A stretch of DNA of 64,000 nt. It comes from Methanocella arvoryzae MRE50. Lineage in GTDB: Archaea; Halobacteriota; Methanocellia; Methanocellales; Methanocellaceae. Shown here in pieces: positions 56,782 through 64,000 of this stretch. Each line of letters starts with the position of its first letter. The first letter of the stretch is position 1. The notes beneath the pieces were generated by a model. It saw nothing but the letters and a program-made list of their open reading frames with translations, was not told the origin of the DNA and made no database searches. Both the position numbers and the translations under genes were made by a program. The stretch spans positions 2,542,001 to 2,606,000 of the forward strand of contig NC_009464.1 of assembly GCF_000063445.1 (NCBI RefSeq), in the 5' to 3' direction.

Positions 56782-57438
56782 TCACACGGGCAACACTTTC
56801 TTCCCGTATGCATCATTCATGATTTCGGCGCAGGCGAGGTATATGGCTGACAGGCCGCAGAGGATGCCCTCATATCCGGCAATGGTCTTGATCATGGCGC
56901 TGCCCGTGAAGTCGGCGATGGCCAGCAGGAAGAATAGCACGGTCAGACTGCCGAAGACGATCTGCAGGGCCAGATTCTTCTTGAGGGTGGCCACGAACAT
57001 GAACGCGGTGAATAGGCCCCAGACTCCGAGGAAGAATCCCATCGAGGCGCTATCGACACTGGCTGCCCAGCCCATGTTGGGGAACTGGAGGAGCGCGACC
57101 AGCGCGATCCAGAACATGCCGTAGGACGTGAATGCCGTCATGCCGAAGGTGTTGCCCTTCCTGAACTCCAGGATGCCGGCGATGACCTGGGCGAGGCCTC
57201 CGTAGAAGATGCCCATGGCGAAGATCATGCCAAGGCTCGTAGCGGAAATTATGTTCGCGTTGTGCAGGTTGAGCAGCACAGTGGTCGCTCCGAAGCCCAT
57301 CAGCCCGAGGGGGGCCGGGTTCGCAAGCACTGATGCGCCAGTTTTAGTAACATCCTCTATCGCGAGCGCTGATGCGCCAGTTTTTGTCATATTCTGTTGA
57401 ACCATTGAATAGTCACCGGTATTGTCACGATAGTTCAT
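56782..57438 (-). CDS. acetate/succinate uptake transporter (GPR1/FUN34/YaaH, SatP type)
   Basis: A 218-residue, six-helix membrane protein. The family signature is NPAPLGLMGFG at the start of helix 1, followed by GIFYGGLAQVIAG and FTSYGMFWI, which line the channel. SatP-type proteins bring in acetate (or succinate) with protons. The N-terminus contains a short internal duplication (MTKTGASALAIEDV / VTKTGASVLANPAP). TTTAAGTATTTTAG just before ATG 57438 suggests a leaderless transcript. It lies beside a second, ActP-type acetate symporter. Confidence 0.92.
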   Translation of the reverse strand: MNYRDNTGDYSMVQQNMTKTGASALAIEDVTKTGASVLANPAPLGLMGFGATTVLLNLHNANIISATSLGMIFAMGIFYGGLAQVIAGILEFRKGNTFGMTAFTSYGMFWIALVALLQFPNMGWAASVDSASMGFFLGVWGLFTAFMFVATLKKNLALQIVFGSLTVLFFLLAIADFTGSAMIKTIAGYEGILCGLSAIYLACAEIMNDAYGKKVLPV

Positions 57439-57519
57439 TCTAAAATACTTAAATGTTTTTATAACGATTAATCGTGGTTGTTCTACCGGGAATTTGAATA
57501 AAAAAGTTGCAGGACCAGC

Positions 57520-59025
57520 TTATGATCCTGCAGTTTTTACGGTTATCTCATCCGCAACTCTCCTTGCATCGAGCAGCGAGACGCCGACTGTCACCGCAAA
57601 GCCCAGCGGAATGCTGACGATTCCCGGGTTGTTCAGCGGGAAAATCGCCCCTGAGCCCATTATTGTAGGGCTGATCAGGATCAGGACGATCGACGATACC
57701 AGTCCGGTGAGTATGCCCGCTATTATGCCCTTGTCGGTCGCCCTTTTCCAGAAGAGCGTGCTCAGGATAGCCGGCAGGTTAGCCGAGGCGGCTATGGCGA
57801 AAGCGAGCCCGACCAGGAAGGCGACGTTCTGTCCTTTGGCCAGGATACCCAGAGCTATCGCGATGACTCCCACTGCGATCGCTGTCAATTTCGAGACCTT
57901 CAGGCTCTTCGACTCATCCGATTTATTGCCCAGTATCTCTGTGTATATGTCGTGAGCGATCGCTCCTGCGGCCGCCATGATCAGGCCTGCCACAGTTCCC
58001 AGGATGGTGGCGAACGCGATGGACGATATGAGGGCGAAGAATACCTCACCGCCTATGTATTGCGCCAGCAGAGGGGCGGCCAGATTCTCGTTCCCGGGGT
58101 CGAAAGTCCCGAAGTAGTTCGCTCCGAGGCCCAGGAACAGCGTCAGGATATAGAAGATCCCGATGGCTATGATGGCGATTACAGTGGACTTCCGGGCGTC
58201 TGCGGGACTCGGCACCGTGTAGTACCGGATCAGGATGTGGGGCAGCGCAGCAGTTCCGAGCACCAGTCCGAGGGCCAGCGAGGCGAAGTCCCACGGGTTG
58301 GTGTACTTGAGGCCGGGGGACAGGAACTGCTCGCCAGTCACCGTTGTCCCTTTGGGGAGCTGGATCGACTGGCTCGACAGTATCGACGAGATGAAGTCGA
58401 TCGGGCCCTGGCCCGCCATTATAAGCACTCCTATGGTAAGACCTCCGGCGGCGATCAAAAGCAGGAAGCCCTTGATGAACTGGACCCAGGTGGTGGATAC
58501 CATCCCGGCCGTGGCCACGATCACGATAACCAGACTCCCCACGATAACTACGCCTAGCTCGTAGGGCAGGCCGATCAATGGCTGTACGATCGAGCCAGCG
58601 CCGACCATCTGGGGAATGAGGTAAAACACGCTGACCACCAGCGTACTGATGGCCGCAGTGAGCCTGACGTACTTGTTTTTGAAGGTGCTGGTCAGCGCGT
58701 CTGCGAACGTATACTTCCCGATCTTCCTGAGCGGCTCCGCCACGATGAACAGGGCCACGATCCAGCCCGCGAGGAAGCCGATGCTGTACATGAAGCCGTC
58801 GAACCCGCTCGCCGCGATCATTCCTGCTATGCCCAGGAACGAGGCAGCGCTCAGGTAGTCCCCGGAGAAAGCGATGCCGTTGACAAACCACTTGACTCCT
58901 CCGCCCGCCGCGTAGAAGTGGCCGGCAGTCCTCACGCCTCTGGCAGCGTAAGCCGAAAGCCCCAGGGCCAGCAGCGTGATGAGGCAGAATAGTGCGAACG
59001 CAATGGGCTTGAAACTATAATCCAT
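57520..59025 (-). CDS. actP: sodium:acetate symporter (SSS family, ActP type)
   Basis: A 501-residue, about 13-helix sodium-solute symporter: GHFYAAGGGVKWFVNGIAF (the SSS signature loop), GDYLSAASFLGIAG and LPHILIRYYTVPSPADARKS are close to ActP. It imports acetate with Na+ at low concentration. Its ATG begins at the base following the stop of the upstream USP-DUF485 gene; in bacteria DUF485 (YjcH) is encoded next to actP. The assignment to acetate is from family and neighbourhood. Confidence 0.9.
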   Translation of the reverse strand: MDYSFKPIAFALFCLITLLALGLSAYAARGVRTAGHFYAAGGGVKWFVNGIAFSGDYLSAASFLGIAGMIAASGFDGFMYSIGFLAGWIVALFIVAEPLRKIGKYTFADALTSTFKNKYVRLTAAISTLVVSVFYLIPQMVGAGSIVQPLIGLPYELGVVIVGSLVIVIVATAGMVSTTWVQFIKGFLLLIAAGGLTIGVLIMAGQGPIDFISSILSSQSIQLPKGTTVTGEQFLSPGLKYTNPWDFASLALGLVLGTAALPHILIRYYTVPSPADARKSTVIAIIAIGIFYILTLFLGLGANYFGTFDPGNENLAAPLLAQYIGGEVFFALISSIAFATILGTVAGLIMAAAGAIAHDIYTEILGNKSDESKSLKVSKLTAIAVGVIAIALGILAKGQNVAFLVGLAFAIAASANLPAILSTLFWKRATDKGIIAGILTGLVSSIVLILISPTIMGSGAIFPLNNPGIVSIPLGFAVTVGVSLLDARRVADEITVKTAGS

Positions 59026-59817
59026 CTATACCCCTCCGGTTTCTGATTCCATCCTGCCCGCGTACCAGCTATAGCCGATGGCCATGAGGATGGCTGCGGC
59101 GATCAGAACCATGCCTGACACCAGGGCGACGTTCAGCCCCAGCAAGCCCTGGCTGAACAGGCCTTTGGCGAAGCTGCCCGTGATGGTGAAGGCCGAGTAG
59201 CCTGCTATGTACAGGCCAAAAAGCACGAGCCCGACTTTAAATCTGGCAGAGCCGGTTATGTCGGAGATATCGATAGCCGGCACCTTGTGCCCGGCACCGT
59301 TGAGGATATCCAGGGCTGTCTGGATTTCGGCTTCTGTCGGCTTGATGACCACGACTGAGCAGTGGGCCTGTTTCACCACTGCTTCCGCTACGTTCCCCAG
59401 AAGTAATCCGCTGATACCCCTGGGGTCTGAAGCTCCCATTATGATCATGTCTGCCTTGATGTCCGCGGCAGTCCGGATGATTTCTCCTACCACCGGCCCG
59501 TCTCTGGTCAGGAACTCGGCGGCAACGCTCTGGCTGCCAGCCAGCCTGCGGGCAAATTCCATGCCGTCGACTTCGGGCTTCCTGCGAAGGGCCGAGTTTT
59601 CCGCCATCTTCTCGATGCCAGTTACCGGTCCCTGCTCTCTGACGTTGAGCACGGAGAGCTTTGCTTTCCTGGCTCTGGCCAGTTCTACTGCCTGTATCGT
59701 AGCAGCCAGCGCCGGGAGCGAGCCATCTGTGGCCAGCAATATTGTCCCGCTTATTCTGGACTCCTCCGTCTTGTCATCCTCTATCAATCTCCTGTCATCC
59801 CTCCAGCGGGATAACAA
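59026..59817 (-). CDS. universal stress protein fused to DUF485 (YjcH-like)
   Basis: A 263-residue fusion. The N-terminal half (about 20-165) is a UspA domain: ILLATDGSLPALAAT, MGASDPRGISGLLLGNVAE with the ATP-binding GxxG-type loop, and VVVIKP. The C-terminal part (about 190-262) is a DUF485/YjcH domain with two helices (RFKVGLVLFGLYIAGYSAF, then a second span). YjcH is normally a separate ~100-residue protein beside ActP. A stress-nucleotide sensor attached to it could tune acetate uptake (inference). The start is uncertain: TTG 59817 or TTG 59787. Confidence 0.88.
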   Translation of the reverse strand: MLSRWRDDRRLIEDDKTEESRISGTILLATDGSLPALAATIQAVELARARKAKLSVLNVREQGPVTGIEKMAENSALRRKPEVDGMEFARRLAGSQSVAAEFLTRDGPVVGEIIRTAADIKADMIIMGASDPRGISGLLLGNVAEAVVKQAHCSVVVIKPTEAEIQTALDILNGAGHKVPAIDISDITGSARFKVGLVLFGLYIAGYSAFTITGSFAKGLFSQGLLGLNVALVSGMVLIAAAILMAIGYSWYAGRMESETGGV

Positions 59818-60020
59818 ATTATAATGATTATTTATGGTATTTAAAAGTATTGATTTATAACGATTATTAATTAGCTATTGTGGTCAAAGAAATGACGGAT
59901 GATTGCCTGAGTGATCTTTGACGGCCCAGTTTCGTACATAATAAAGATTATCAGCTGACAGGTCCTATTTTATGAAGAATCGAATCTGGGGCATCACTGG
60001 CCTCCACGTATAGCCGGAAA

Positions 60021-60028
60021 CTTTAAAC
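60021..60028 (+). promoter_or_regulatory. likely TATA element of the SPFH/zinc-ribbon operon
   Basis: CTTTAAAC, preceded by CCGGAAA, lies 28-35 bases before ATG 60056. Expected initiation near 60050 would leave a very short leader. AAGGGA (60044-60049) could instead act as a ribosome-binding site. Confidence 0.45.
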
Positions 60029-60055
60029 TAACCTATAACTGGCAAGGGATTTGAC

Positions 60056-60583
60056 ATGGTTGACTTAAGAGATAAGGTCGTGCAAGATCGGGGCATCATA
60101 GCCAAAATCCAGAGCATGATCCCGGGGTTCAGCGGGTATCGAGCGAAAGAAGATCTGAGGGCCGCTGACAACATGTTACGCATTCAGGTGGCTGACCGGC
60201 TGGCATCGATCAGGGGCGACTTTGAGGAATGCAGGACTATCCTGCTGGACAACGGGCAGATGGAAGGCCTGGACAAGATCGGGATACTCATCAGCAAGTT
60301 CAAAACCGTAGAAGGCGAAATTCGGCATGCCGCCCAGGGCTATTCAGGCATCGACGCCCGGATCAGGGTGGGCGAAGACCGGCTGAACAAGCTGTACGAG
60401 TATGACCTGAATATGGTCACGCTGCTGACCGAGATCAAGGCTGAAGTAGACAGGGTTAAGTCTCTGGCCGTCACGGGCGGCCCGGATTACCGGCAGGCGC
60501 TGGCTCAACTCGCGATCAAGCTCGACGGCATGCAGGGCACGAACAAGAGGCGGATGGCCTTCATCACAGGCACAGAGGTGTAA
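60056..60583 (+). CDS. coiled-coil protein, first gene of the SPFH/zinc-ribbon operon
   Basis: A 175-residue soluble, largely helical protein with heptad-like stretches (ADNMLRIQVADRLASIRGDF; RVGEDRLNKLYEYDLNMV). No enzyme motif is visible. It resembles PspA-type or other membrane-associated scaffold proteins only in its helical nature. It ends four bases before the SPFH-like gene. Its role in the complex is unknown; it could be a partner that oligomerises at the membrane. Confidence 0.7.
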   Translation: MVDLRDKVVQDRGIIAKIQSMIPGFSGYRAKEDLRAADNMLRIQVADRLASIRGDFEECRTILLDNGQMEGLDKIGILISKFKTVEGEIRHAAQGYSGIDARIRVGEDRLNKLYEYDLNMVTLLTEIKAEVDRVKSLAVTGGPDYRQALAQLAIKLDGMQGTNKRRMAFITGTEV

Positions 60584-60587
60584 AAGC

Positions 60588-61736
60588 ATGGCAATCATAG
60601 GCGGAGATAAGAAGAGCGTCATCGGCGCTGCGACGATCGCCTGGGAAGAGAACGAGAAGCGCGGCAACATCATGTGGAAGGTGCCGCGGAACATCCGGTT
60701 CAACGACAACATCGTCGTCCGGGAGGACGAGATGGCGGTCTTCTACAGGGACGGCAAAGCCCTCGACTATATCGACCGGCCTGACCGGTATGCGCTGACA
60801 TCCATGAACGCGCCCATCGTCGGCCGCATCGTGGAATTCCTGTCCGGCGTCAGGCAGGACGCGGAAGTATACTACATCCAGAAGCGGGTATTCGACGGCA
60901 AGTTCGGCAGCAAGCAACCATACGTATTCCGGGACAAGGACTTCGGGCTGGTCAACCTCCGGGTGTTCGGCGAGTTCAGGTACAAGGTCACCGGCCCCAT
61001 GAACTTCATCAACCAGTTCGTCGGCACCTTCAGCTACACCACCTCGGCTGACGTGGAAGAGCGCATCAAGGACCAGGCGGTAGTCGTTTTATACGACGTG
61101 CTGGGCGACGCCAAGAACGGCGGCATGGGCGTGGCAGACCTCGCGGCCAACCTGACCAACATCGAGCAGGCGTGGCTGGAGCGGTCCAAGGCTCACTTCG
61201 AGCCTTACGGCATCACCATGGACAAACTCTCCGGACTGTACATCACCATGCCGGAGGAAGTCCAGAAGGCTGTTGATACCAGATCGTCCATGGGCGTGCT
61301 GGGCACTAACTATATGCAGTACCAGACCGGCCAGGCCATGCGCGAGGCAGCCCAGAACCCTTCGGGCGGCGGCGCTGGAGCAGGCGTCGGAGTCGGCGCA
61401 GGCATCGGCATGGGCTATATGATGGTCGACCAGATGCGCCAGATGGGCCAGCAGCAACAACAGCCCCAGCAGCAGCCCCAGCAACAGGCTGCCGCCGGCA
61501 CTCCTTGCGCGAAGTGCGGCGCCAGCGTCCCGCAGGGAGCGAAGTTCTGTCCGTCCTGCGGTGCGAAGCAGGAGACCGCCGTCTGCAGCAAGTGCGGGGC
61601 AGCGCTGCCTCCCGGTGCGAAGTTCTGTCCGTCCTGCGGCCAGCCCGCCGGTGGGGAGCAGGCCTGCCCCAAATGCGGCACTAAAGTCGCTGCCGGCAGC
61701 AAGTTCTGCCCCAGCTGCGGAAATCAGCTAGGGTGA
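60588..61736 (+). CDS. SPFH-like (virion-core-protein family) protein with three C-terminal zinc ribbons
   Basis: A 382-residue protein. Residues about 20-235 form a band-7/SPFH-like domain (IMWKVPRNIRFNDNIVVRED, FGLVNLRVFGEFRYKV, GITMDKLSGLYI), as in YdjI/virion-core-like proteins. A glycine-rich segment, a Gln-rich linker and three zinc ribbons (each CxxCG...FCPSCG) make up the last 130 residues. There is no clear transmembrane helix. Such proteins assemble on membranes. It is followed after seven bases by a zinc-ribbon membrane protein. The specific function is unknown. Confidence 0.88.
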   Translation: MAIIGGDKKSVIGAATIAWEENEKRGNIMWKVPRNIRFNDNIVVREDEMAVFYRDGKALDYIDRPDRYALTSMNAPIVGRIVEFLSGVRQDAEVYYIQKRVFDGKFGSKQPYVFRDKDFGLVNLRVFGEFRYKVTGPMNFINQFVGTFSYTTSADVEERIKDQAVVVLYDVLGDAKNGGMGVADLAANLTNIEQAWLERSKAHFEPYGITMDKLSGLYITMPEEVQKAVDTRSSMGVLGTNYMQYQTGQAMREAAQNPSGGGAGAGVGVGAGIGMGYMMVDQMRQMGQQQQQPQQQPQQQAAAGTPCAKCGASVPQGAKFCPSCGAKQETAVCSKCGAALPPGAKFCPSCGQPAGGEQACPKCGTKVAAGSKFCPSCGNQLG

Positions 61737-61743
61737 AAAACTA

Positions 61744-62520
61744 ATGGCAGAGATCAGGTGCACCCGGTGCGGTGCACCCATACCTTTCGACTCCGGCGTC
61801 AAGTTCGTCAAGTGCAGCCACTGCGGTACGCAGCTGTACATCGACAAAAGCGGCGCTGGCTTCTTCTACATCATGCCCTTCTTCATTCAGCGGAACGACG
61901 CAGAGGGCATCTTCAAGCGGTGGACTGCAGGGGCCAAAATGGCCAGGGACCTGGAACAGACAGCGAAGATCACCGACTTCAGGCAGCTATACTTCCCGGT
62001 CTACCTATTCAGGCGGAACATCTCCGGCCAGGAAAAAGTGTTCGTCGAGCCGGCCAAATCCACGACCATGCCCGGGCTCCACTCCCTGAAAGTTCCCGCC
62101 GGCGATCTAAAAATATTCGACGAGAGCTACAGCACCGGCGGTGTCGAGCTGGTCAAGCCGGACATCGAGATGACGGCTTACCTGTCAAGCCTGGAGGGCA
62201 CTCCGCTCGAGCAGGCGCTGGTCTTCTTCCCGATCTGGGCTATCCAGTACGAGTACAGGGGTACTAAGTACCCTGCCGTCATCGACGGCTCGTCCGGGGA
62301 AGTCTATACCGGCCAGTTCCCGACCAGGAAAGCGGCGCCCTACCTGCTCATCGCTGCCGCGGCTTTCGGCATCTTCTTCCTGGAAGGGCTCGCCGGTTTC
62401 ATCTTATCCATGGGCGCGGGAGATTCGGCTATATTCGTATGGATCATCATCCTGCTGGTCGCGCTCTTCACCATCCCGTTCGTCACAGCAGCCGCATACG
62501 TCGTAGTCAGGAGGTTCTAA
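61744..62520 (+). CDS. zinc-ribbon membrane protein A
   Basis: A 258-residue protein. An N-terminal zinc ribbon (C6, C9, C24, C27: CTRCGAPIPF...CSHCG) is followed by a soluble domain with LYFPVYLFRRNISG and FFPIWAIQYEYRGTKYPAV, then DGSSGEVYTGQFP and two transmembrane helices (about 197-220 and 228-256). The FFPIW...DG.SGxVxxGxxP stretch recurs in the next gene, so these are paralogs. It is probably anchored with its ribbon in the cytoplasm. Function unknown. Confidence 0.82.
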   Translation: MAEIRCTRCGAPIPFDSGVKFVKCSHCGTQLYIDKSGAGFFYIMPFFIQRNDAEGIFKRWTAGAKMARDLEQTAKITDFRQLYFPVYLFRRNISGQEKVFVEPAKSTTMPGLHSLKVPAGDLKIFDESYSTGGVELVKPDIEMTAYLSSLEGTPLEQALVFFPIWAIQYEYRGTKYPAVIDGSSGEVYTGQFPTRKAAPYLLIAAAAFGIFFLEGLAGFILSMGAGDSAIFVWIIILLVALFTIPFVTAAAYVVVRRF

Positions 62521-62521
62521 C

Positions 62522-63535
62522 ATGAGCATATCTCTCTCCATGAACTGCCCCAACTGCGGCGGCGACGTGAGCGTCGACGAGGGGACGAAGTATACCTCAT
62601 GTAAGTACTGCTCTGCGATCCTGTCCATAGAAGGCGACGACGGTGTCCGCCGCATCACCTTCAGGAATAAAGTGAGCCGAGACCAGGCGATCGCCGAGGT
62701 ACGCCGGTGGTGGAAAGGTGGGTTCAAGGCCCGGGACCTGCGCCGGCGGGGCGAAGTGACCGAGTGCTATCCAATCTACGTGCCCTTCTGGCGCCTGCGG
62801 GCGAGGGCGGCGGGCTGGGTTTGCGGCTACAAGACGGTCCAGCGGAACAAGCGCACCGAGAGAGTGCCGCTGGAAAAGATGGTGGCCCGGGACATGGACT
62901 GGACTCAGGTAGCCAGCGACGCCGGGGACATCGGTGTCGAGCGCCTGCGCAACCTGGACGGAGAAGCGGTCATCCTCGACGAGGGGAGCATCCCCACTTT
63001 CGAGGCGACGACCTCCAGCACCGACGCGCTGAGTACCGGCCTGTCCCAGATTCGCTCTGAAGCAGTGTCCTATGCAGGCGTGCCGAGCATCACCTTCCAG
63101 CAGGTGAACGTGATTCCCCGGGGGCTGTCGCTGGTCTTCTACCCGATATGGATGGTCCGGTACAAGTACGCCGATCGCATGTATTTCGCTACCGTGGACG
63201 GTATCACCGGCCGGGTCCTTTCCGGCAGGGCGCCAGGCGACTACCTGTGGCGGAGCCTCAGCATGGCCGTCGGCATGGCCGTCGGCGGAGTCGGCATCGG
63301 CTTCAGCGCGTGGATCGGGCTTGTCATCGAGTCCGAGGGAGGCTGCGGATTGGCGCTGTTCCTGATGGCCGCAAGCCTCATTATCGCCGCCGGATCCTTC
63401 GGGTTCTTCAGGCACGGTGTAGAAATGACAGCCGGCGACGTCAAAGGCGGGTACAACCTGTTCAAGAATAACAGGCCGGATGCGGAAGACGCCGCGTTCG
63501 ACAAGATCGCGCCGTCGCTGTTCGGAGGGCGATAA
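62522..63535 (+). CDS. zinc-ribbon membrane protein B
   Basis: A 337-residue protein with the same plan as its neighbour: zinc ribbon (C9, C12, C27, C30), a domain with YPIYVPFWRLRARAAG and LVFYPIWMVRYKYADRMYF, then DGITGRVLSGRAP and two transmembrane helices (about 240-290). It is longer in the middle region. ATG 62522 begins one base after the previous stop. It is a diverged duplicate of gene A. Function unknown. Confidence 0.82.
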   Translation: MSISLSMNCPNCGGDVSVDEGTKYTSCKYCSAILSIEGDDGVRRITFRNKVSRDQAIAEVRRWWKGGFKARDLRRRGEVTECYPIYVPFWRLRARAAGWVCGYKTVQRNKRTERVPLEKMVARDMDWTQVASDAGDIGVERLRNLDGEAVILDEGSIPTFEATTSSTDALSTGLSQIRSEAVSYAGVPSITFQQVNVIPRGLSLVFYPIWMVRYKYADRMYFATVDGITGRVLSGRAPGDYLWRSLSMAVGMAVGGVGIGFSAWIGLVIESEGGCGLALFLMAASLIIAAGSFGFFRHGVEMTAGDVKGGYNLFKNNRPDAEDAAFDKIAPSLFGGR

Positions 63536-63536
63536 G

Positions 63537-64000
63537 ATGACGACAAAAATTGTACAGGTATACTGCCCGAACTGTAAGACGCCCATGTTCTCAAAACCGC
63601 AGGACGTCGACAACGTTTTTCTCTGCGACAACTGCGGGACCATGCACGTCCGCAGCAACGGCAACGTAGAAACGATCGGCTACGAGTTCGGGGCTTTCGA
63701 CGTAGATAAAAAAAGCGAAGGCGAACGCGTTTACCTGCCCTTCTGGGTGCTGAACGCGCAGTTCGACATCCACAACCTGAGCGCCCAGGGAGGCGGGCTG
63801 GGGAACCTGTTCGGCCTCCTCGGCGGCGGCCAGGACCGGCAGGGTACGATCGTGATTTACATGCCCGCCTATGACATGGATCCCGGGCATTTCAAGGACG
63901 TCTCCATGTACCATACGGGCAACCCGCCCCAGTACCGGGCATCAAAGCCCGAGCCCGGCGTCCGGAGGCTGAAGTGCGCGCTGACCGTCGAGCTCCTGCC
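63537..64000 (+). CDS. zinc-ribbon protein C, 3' end outside window (partial)
   Basis: At least 154 residues are visible, and the frame is open at the window edge. The N-terminal zinc ribbon has C10, C13, C30 and C33 (YCPNCKTPMF...LCDNCG). YLPFWVLNAQFDI is the counterpart of the YxPxW/Y motif of genes A and B. A glycine-rich loop follows (GGGLGNLFGLLGGGQ). ATG 63537 begins one base after the stop of gene B. No transmembrane segment is visible yet. Function unknown. Confidence 0.75.
   Translation, partial: MTTKIVQVYCPNCKTPMFSKPQDVDNVFLCDNCGTMHVRSNGNVETIGYEFGAFDVDKKSEGERVYLPFWVLNAQFDIHNLSAQGGGLGNLFGLLGGGQDRQGTIVIYMPAYDMDPGHFKDVSMYHTGNPPQYRASKPEPGVRRLKCALTVELL

Follow-up and report, generated by a model that had tools for sequence, protein, structure and literature searches.

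A conserved archaeal gene set joining an SPFH/zinc-ribbon protein, a helical partner and zinc-ribbon membrane proteins: a candidate membrane-maintenance complex in Methanocella arvoryzae

Based on analyses of the operon at the end of the window, i.e. the 64,000-base stretch studied here (contig 1, 2542001-2606000 of the 3,179,916-base M. arvoryzae genome), combined with comparisons to related loci, we find that five adjacent genes form a defined, conserved archaeal gene set. We propose, with a probability of about one half, that their products assemble into a single complex at the cytoplasmic face of the membrane, with an SPFH scaffold anchored by the products of genes 3 and 4, similar to YdjGHI of Bacillus subtilis yet operating without PspA. 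Slightly less firmly, we take this to be an undescribed archaeal membrane-maintenance complex, combining the SPFH scaffold with a non-ESCRT, LIMLP_15305-like helical partner and a zinc-ribbon hairpin family of new fold, with a range that extends from methanogens to Thermoplasmatota and Nitrososphaeria and, for relatives of gene 1, into spirochaetes. Most parts of the operon lie outside any family of known function.

All five open reading frames are on the plus strand and are separated by 4, 7, 1 and 1 bases, the tight packing reported in the first-pass annotation matching the coordinates exactly. Gene 1 (60056-60583) encodes a soluble helical protein of 175 residues and is followed by gene 2 (60588-61736), which encodes the SPFH protein, and by the zinc-ribbon genes 3 (61744-62520), 4 (62522-63535) and 5, the last of which starts at 63537 and continues across the window end at 64000. 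Extension into the genome sequence places its stop at window-equivalent position 64148, giving a full length of 203 residues; no close sixth co-directional gene follows, the next clear gene being PEBP-like and on the opposite strand. Approximately 30 bases upstream of gene 1, a candidate archaeal BRE/TATA-like element, CCGGAAACTTTAAACT, with the TATA-like part CTTTAAAC, was identified by eye (60014-60029, plus strand). Divergent from gene 1, the window encodes a SatP-like acetate transporter, an SSS-family symporter and a membrane universal-stress protein (56782-59817), and each of the four Methanocella-family genomes inspected has the SatP relative adjoining the operon.

The helical nature of the gene 1 product, as first read from the sequence, is borne out by its AF2 model, a five-helix bundle with a pLDDT of 84.7. 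No Pfam family scored over cut-off, and the protein is matched over its full length by the NCBIfam model LIMLP_15305 (NF047596; E 2.7e-10), with a score of 40.4 bits that is far under the equivalog cut-off of 210 bits. The same model matches all 14 aligned sequences, i.e. gene 1 and 13 homologues, over nearly their full length with E-values of 1e-10 to 1e-14. Judged by these profile matches, gene 1 is a member of a family homologous to NF047596, and not an equivalog. Invariant segments of the homologues include PGFxGYRxxEDxRxADxxLRxQ and HAxQGYxG. Searches for PDB homologues with the sequences of genes 1 and 2 returned nothing useful. A weak paralogue of gene 1 (174 residues; G000 contig 1:2158489-2158650, L039:7172-7696) is found beside a CheW-like gene, with no SPFH gene match nearby.

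Gene 2 is an SPFH-like protein ending in three zinc ribbons, as had been claimed: the SPFH domain (PF13421, Band_7_1; E=4e-36, 124.9 bits against a curated cut-off of 24) is followed by a glycine-rich and glutamine-rich linker and by three C-terminal ribbons detected by profile search. Across 16 homologues, all eight cysteines of ribbons one and two are invariant. The genome encodes no other PF13421 protein, and a control search found PF13421 also in B. subtilis. No membrane helix was detected in gene 2, the maximum hydropathy over 19 residues being 1.25, so that in combining PF13421, C-terminal zinc ribbons and the lack of an anchor it is of the YdjI type. B. subtilis YdjI has no membrane anchor and carries a C-terminal zinc finger, and YdjI, YdjG and YdjH are all needed for membrane foci of PspA (PMC8581546); YdjI, itself of PF13421 type, reaches the membrane only with YdjG/YdjH (PMC8581546, PMC11237479). 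A 2009 classification divided prokaryotic SPFH proteins into twelve subfamilies and predicted two of them to be soluble (PMC2636767).

Genes 3, 4 and 5 each encode an N-terminal CxxC...CxxC ribbon, the cysteines of which are invariant in homologues, and all three contain the YxP(F/V)(W/Y) motif noted at first reading. The PIW...DG.(S/T)GxV segment followed by two hydrophobic stretches was likewise confirmed in genes 3 and 4. Gene 3 thereby comprises the ribbon, an undescribed domain with two YP-motifs and two predicted membrane helices at the C-terminus; gene 4 has the same layout with a bigger central domain, and gene 5 has a ribbon and a YxPFW motif, without hydrophobic membrane segments. 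Once the ribbon is taken out, hhalign matches genes 3 and 4 over 166 columns at 98.95% probability, with a score of 122 against a shuffled maximum of 20. On this comparison they are true paralogues that unite a zinc ribbon, a domain absent from Pfam and the PDB, and two predicted membrane helices. Gene 5, treated in the same way, reaches 54% against gene 4, where the alignment shrinks to 20 columns surrounding the YxPFW motif (score 36 against 23), and is at noise level against gene 3 (5%). The first-pass annotation had proposed three related subunits and had made a common fold of the three a test of the system; both hold for genes 3 and 4, whereas gene 5 has only the ribbon and a short motif in common with them and lacks membrane helices. 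Its reading as a full paralogue is not supported by the comparison without the ribbon. Basic residues flank the hairpin of the gene 3 and gene 4 proteins on both sides, suggesting that both ends of each are cytoplasmic. Pfam recognised the ribbon alone in 14 homologues of gene 4. The structure model of gene 4 (mean pLDDT 79, pTM 0.64) contains long strands with helices and found nothing better in the PDB than E 0.07 with a TM-score near 0.1, values at which its arrestin-like top matches are meaningless.

The gene order is conserved elsewhere, the absence of which would have argued against a defined system, and it recurs across archaeal lineages with modular shuffling. In the phylum sample, the order 1-2-3-4-5 is present at five loci (four Methanocella-family genomes and G191) and 3-4-5-1-2 at eight; genes 1-2 stand alone at two loci and next to a single zinc-ribbon gene at one. 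The two genomes with lone pairs encode the trio elsewhere (G135) or hold two pairs and two trios (G217). The order within the trio 3-4-5 is thus constant, while its position is before the pair, after it or elsewhere in the genome. In 80 further archaeal loci from named genomes, gene 1 adjoins gene 2 at 78 of the 78 where the contig continues; one downstream zinc-ribbon gene is present in 27, and complete sets are found in either order. Titles of gene 1 homologues cover Methanocella (among them Methanocella sp. PtaU1.Bin125), Methanocorpusculum, Methanomicrobium, Methanoperedens, Thermoplasmata, Methanomassiliicoccales and Thaumarchaeota/Nitrososphaerales. Genes 1 and 2 are separated by a median of 3 bases, genes 3 and 4 by -4 and genes 4 and 5 by 3.5; where the trio comes first, the median gap between the modules is 338 bases, which suggests two transcription units at those loci.

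Presence is tightly linked as well. Among 295 genomes of the phylum, gene 1 was found in 16 (one weak), the SPFH type in 15 (matches at E<=1e-20) and gene 5 in 14, the latter two nested within the genomes positive for gene 1, a pattern for which the hypergeometric figures ignore shared descent. Relatives of gene 4 without gene 1 are multi-copy in three genomes of one family, besides two very weak matches; tandem arrays of three to five gene-4-like proteins are encoded in three genomes lacking gene 1 (L140, L141, L142). Divergence is correlated between genes 1 and 2 (r=0.85) and genes 4 and 5 (r=0.93), compared with permutation maxima of 0.08 and 0.24, a correlation that shared descent predicts too. 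In five genomes (G135, G163, G212, G217 and G266), a single open frame matches gene 4 and then gene 5. Three such frames of about 500 residues were read directly (L137:6754-8271, L138:6446-7945, L139:6620-8116): a relative of gene 3 precedes each, the gene 3 and gene 4 parts are ribbonless, and the gene 5 part retains its ribbon. Fusions of this sort usually reflect physical association. The recurrence across archaea, together with the homology of genes 3 and 4 outside the ribbon, shows that the set is not a chance assembly, and recurring order, linked presence and fusion of two subunits in relatives agree with the defined system first suggested.

The conserved set probably encodes a physical complex. 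From analogy to YdjGHI and from protein anatomy, we infer the complex, its topology, the zinc-ribbon contacts and a role in stress as follows. Gene 2 would supply a soluble SPFH protein that probably oligomerises as a scaffold and is held at the membrane by the paralogous proteins of genes 3 and 4, each predicted to insert a two-helix hairpin while keeping its folded part in the cytoplasm. Contacts between subunits are probably made by the zinc ribbons of genes 2-5, with the gene 5 protein likely docking on that of gene 4. Gene 1 is probably an obligate partner or effector of the SPFH protein, and would take the place that PspA occupies in the pspA-ydjGHI operon. The likely role is membrane organisation or maintenance, perhaps under stress. 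The membrane-bound scaffold envisaged at first reading fits this anatomy as well as the published analogue YdjI/YdjG/YdjH (PMC8581546).

Membrane partners also occur at related loci. By a simple hydropathy test devised after viewing the data, a zinc-ribbon protein with helices is encoded at 37 of the 73 loci having enough flank, and at the others, where zinc-ribbon proteins are helixless or missing, a small membrane protein lies directly beside the pair in 27 of 36, mostly with four segments, one or more of these neighbours (L076) being an unrelated permease fragment. Substitution by a small membrane protein beside genes 1-2 is at this stage suggestive only. Four-segment examples (L027:7991-8335, L063:1882-2442, L084:6527-6910) are possibly another component of the system. 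The same test detected no membrane partner at nine loci (L062, L068, L073, L074, L081, L083, L094, L102, L113), which appear to be of Nitrososphaeria type with the pair retained, and this speaks against the proposed complex. In bacterial plasmids, the SPFH-type neighbourhood of Gemmatirosa has weak, frame-shifted zinc-ribbon similarity adjacent and no gene 1, and the SPFH-type genes of Nocardia and Novosphingobium have other partners, the latter (L124:5968-12443) being followed by two DUF4178 genes, DUF350 and polyamine-metabolism genes.

Alternatively, the operon may encode a quality-control platform akin to HflK/C-FtsH, in which an SPFH cage and zinc-ribbon adaptors pass misfolded membrane proteins to a protease, e.g. 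of the M48 family. An M48 (HtpX-like) gene is present near the pair at seven related loci (L046, L047, L048, L049, L050, L059, L092), with EF-hand matches in both M48 proteins scanned; an arrestin-domain-like gene is also encoded at one of these (L092), and at L026 and L075. Elsewhere, SPFH proteins are binding partners of FtsH (PMC2636767). However, the M48 gene is on the opposite strand in all seven cases, and a protease is absent from the operon and from most loci. We regard this alternative as unlikely.

It is considerably less probable that the operon is a divergent branch of the PspA-YdjGHI phage-shock system with gene 1 as a strongly diverged PspA/ESCRT-III protein. The SPFH type with C-terminal zinc ribbons and the zinc-ribbon membrane partners are shared, and gene 1 is helical and in first position, as is pspA in B. 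subtilis. Nevertheless, against a profile of 12 archaeal PspA sequences gene 1 scored 13, below the shuffled maximum of 18 and compared with 566 for a PspA control, so that it is not detectably PspA; its model gave no significant Foldseek match in the PDB, with PspA absent among the matches, and Pfam found no TPM domain, the domain of YdjH, in genes 3-5 at E<=1. This controlled profile comparison and the fold search disfavour gene 1 as a diverged PspA/ESCRT-III protein. PspA (PF04012) has no match in the M. arvoryzae genome, and where gene-1 genomes have PspA it is encoded elsewhere, indicating that the system operates with no PspA gene beside it. A general replacement of PspA is not supported: PspA is present in 4 of 15 gene-1 genomes and in 128 of 280 others, a difference that is not significant (Fisher p=0.19), and three relatives of the same family as M. 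arvoryzae carry it elsewhere in the genome.

Membership in an ESCRT or vesicle-type system is equally hard to uphold. In the Meth_adaptin loci of methanogens, too, an SPFH protein bearing a coiled coil and a zinc ribbon, likened to YdjI in the same study, is encoded with zinc-ribbon adaptin-like proteins (PMC11188069). On the other hand, no Vps4 or ESCRT-III frame is found in or beside the operon, Snf7 (PF03357) has no match in the genome, using a model that is weakly sensitive for archaea, and the predicted fold of gene 4 does not match adaptin appendage structures. Conflict systems often include membrane SPFH and zinc-ribbon proteins, yet it is scarcely credible that the operon is a defence or signalling island, as none of the five proteins matches PADLOC models, no relatives of gene 1 were found in viruses (IMG/VR) or plasmids, and synteny is conserved within the family, unlike that of an island.

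Membrane surveillance in archaea is poorly known: a 2022 survey of 915 archaeal genomes found over half of them to lack any Psp domain (PMC9239133), and the M. arvoryzae genome has no PspA. If correct, the conserved, PspA-free SPFH complex proposed here is a candidate for the missing surveillance role, and SPFH/zinc-ribbon platforms would pair with different effectors. The operon also provides defined targets, namely one uncharacterised helical family and a membrane-protein family with a predicted fold unmatched in the PDB. No description of the present gene set was found in the open-access literature searched. The first-pass annotation knew of no named system with this layout, which stands for the gene set, apparently unpublished, but not for its theme, which is published for PspA-YdjGHI (PMC11237479) and in the SPFH/zinc-ribbon parts of Meth_adaptin (PMC11188069), neither with the present genes.

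In comparison with known systems, the stomatin/NfeD and HflK/C-FtsH operons similarly encode an SPFH scaffold with membrane partners; their scaffolds have an N-terminal membrane segment of their own and pair with NfeD or FtsH, neither of which is in the M. arvoryzae operon. The Meth_adaptin ESCRT loci (Makarova et al. 2024, PMC11188069) resemble the present operon in placing an archaeal SPFH/zinc-ribbon protein beside other zinc-ribbon proteins, and differ in their Vps4, ESCRT-III and adaptin-appendage proteins. Gene 1 is alike over nearly its whole length to the uncharacterised LIMLP_15305 family, named for a Leptospira protein, whose context there receives passing mention only in the literature. 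The pspA-ydjGHI operon differs in that its SPFH gene is last, rather than second, and that it encodes PspA, to which gene 1 shows no detectable relation. YdjG comprises two zinc ribbons, an NTF2-like domain and a membrane segment, and YdjH is a TPM-domain protein (PMC11237479); genes 3-5, compared to these by published description only, have their own undescribed domain and no TPM match, and genes 3 and 4 combine a zinc ribbon with predicted membrane helices. Common to both is the overall design, i.e. an anchorless PF13421 SPFH protein with a C-terminal zinc ribbon and a zinc-ribbon membrane partner, encoded in a compact operon that is opened by a helical protein.
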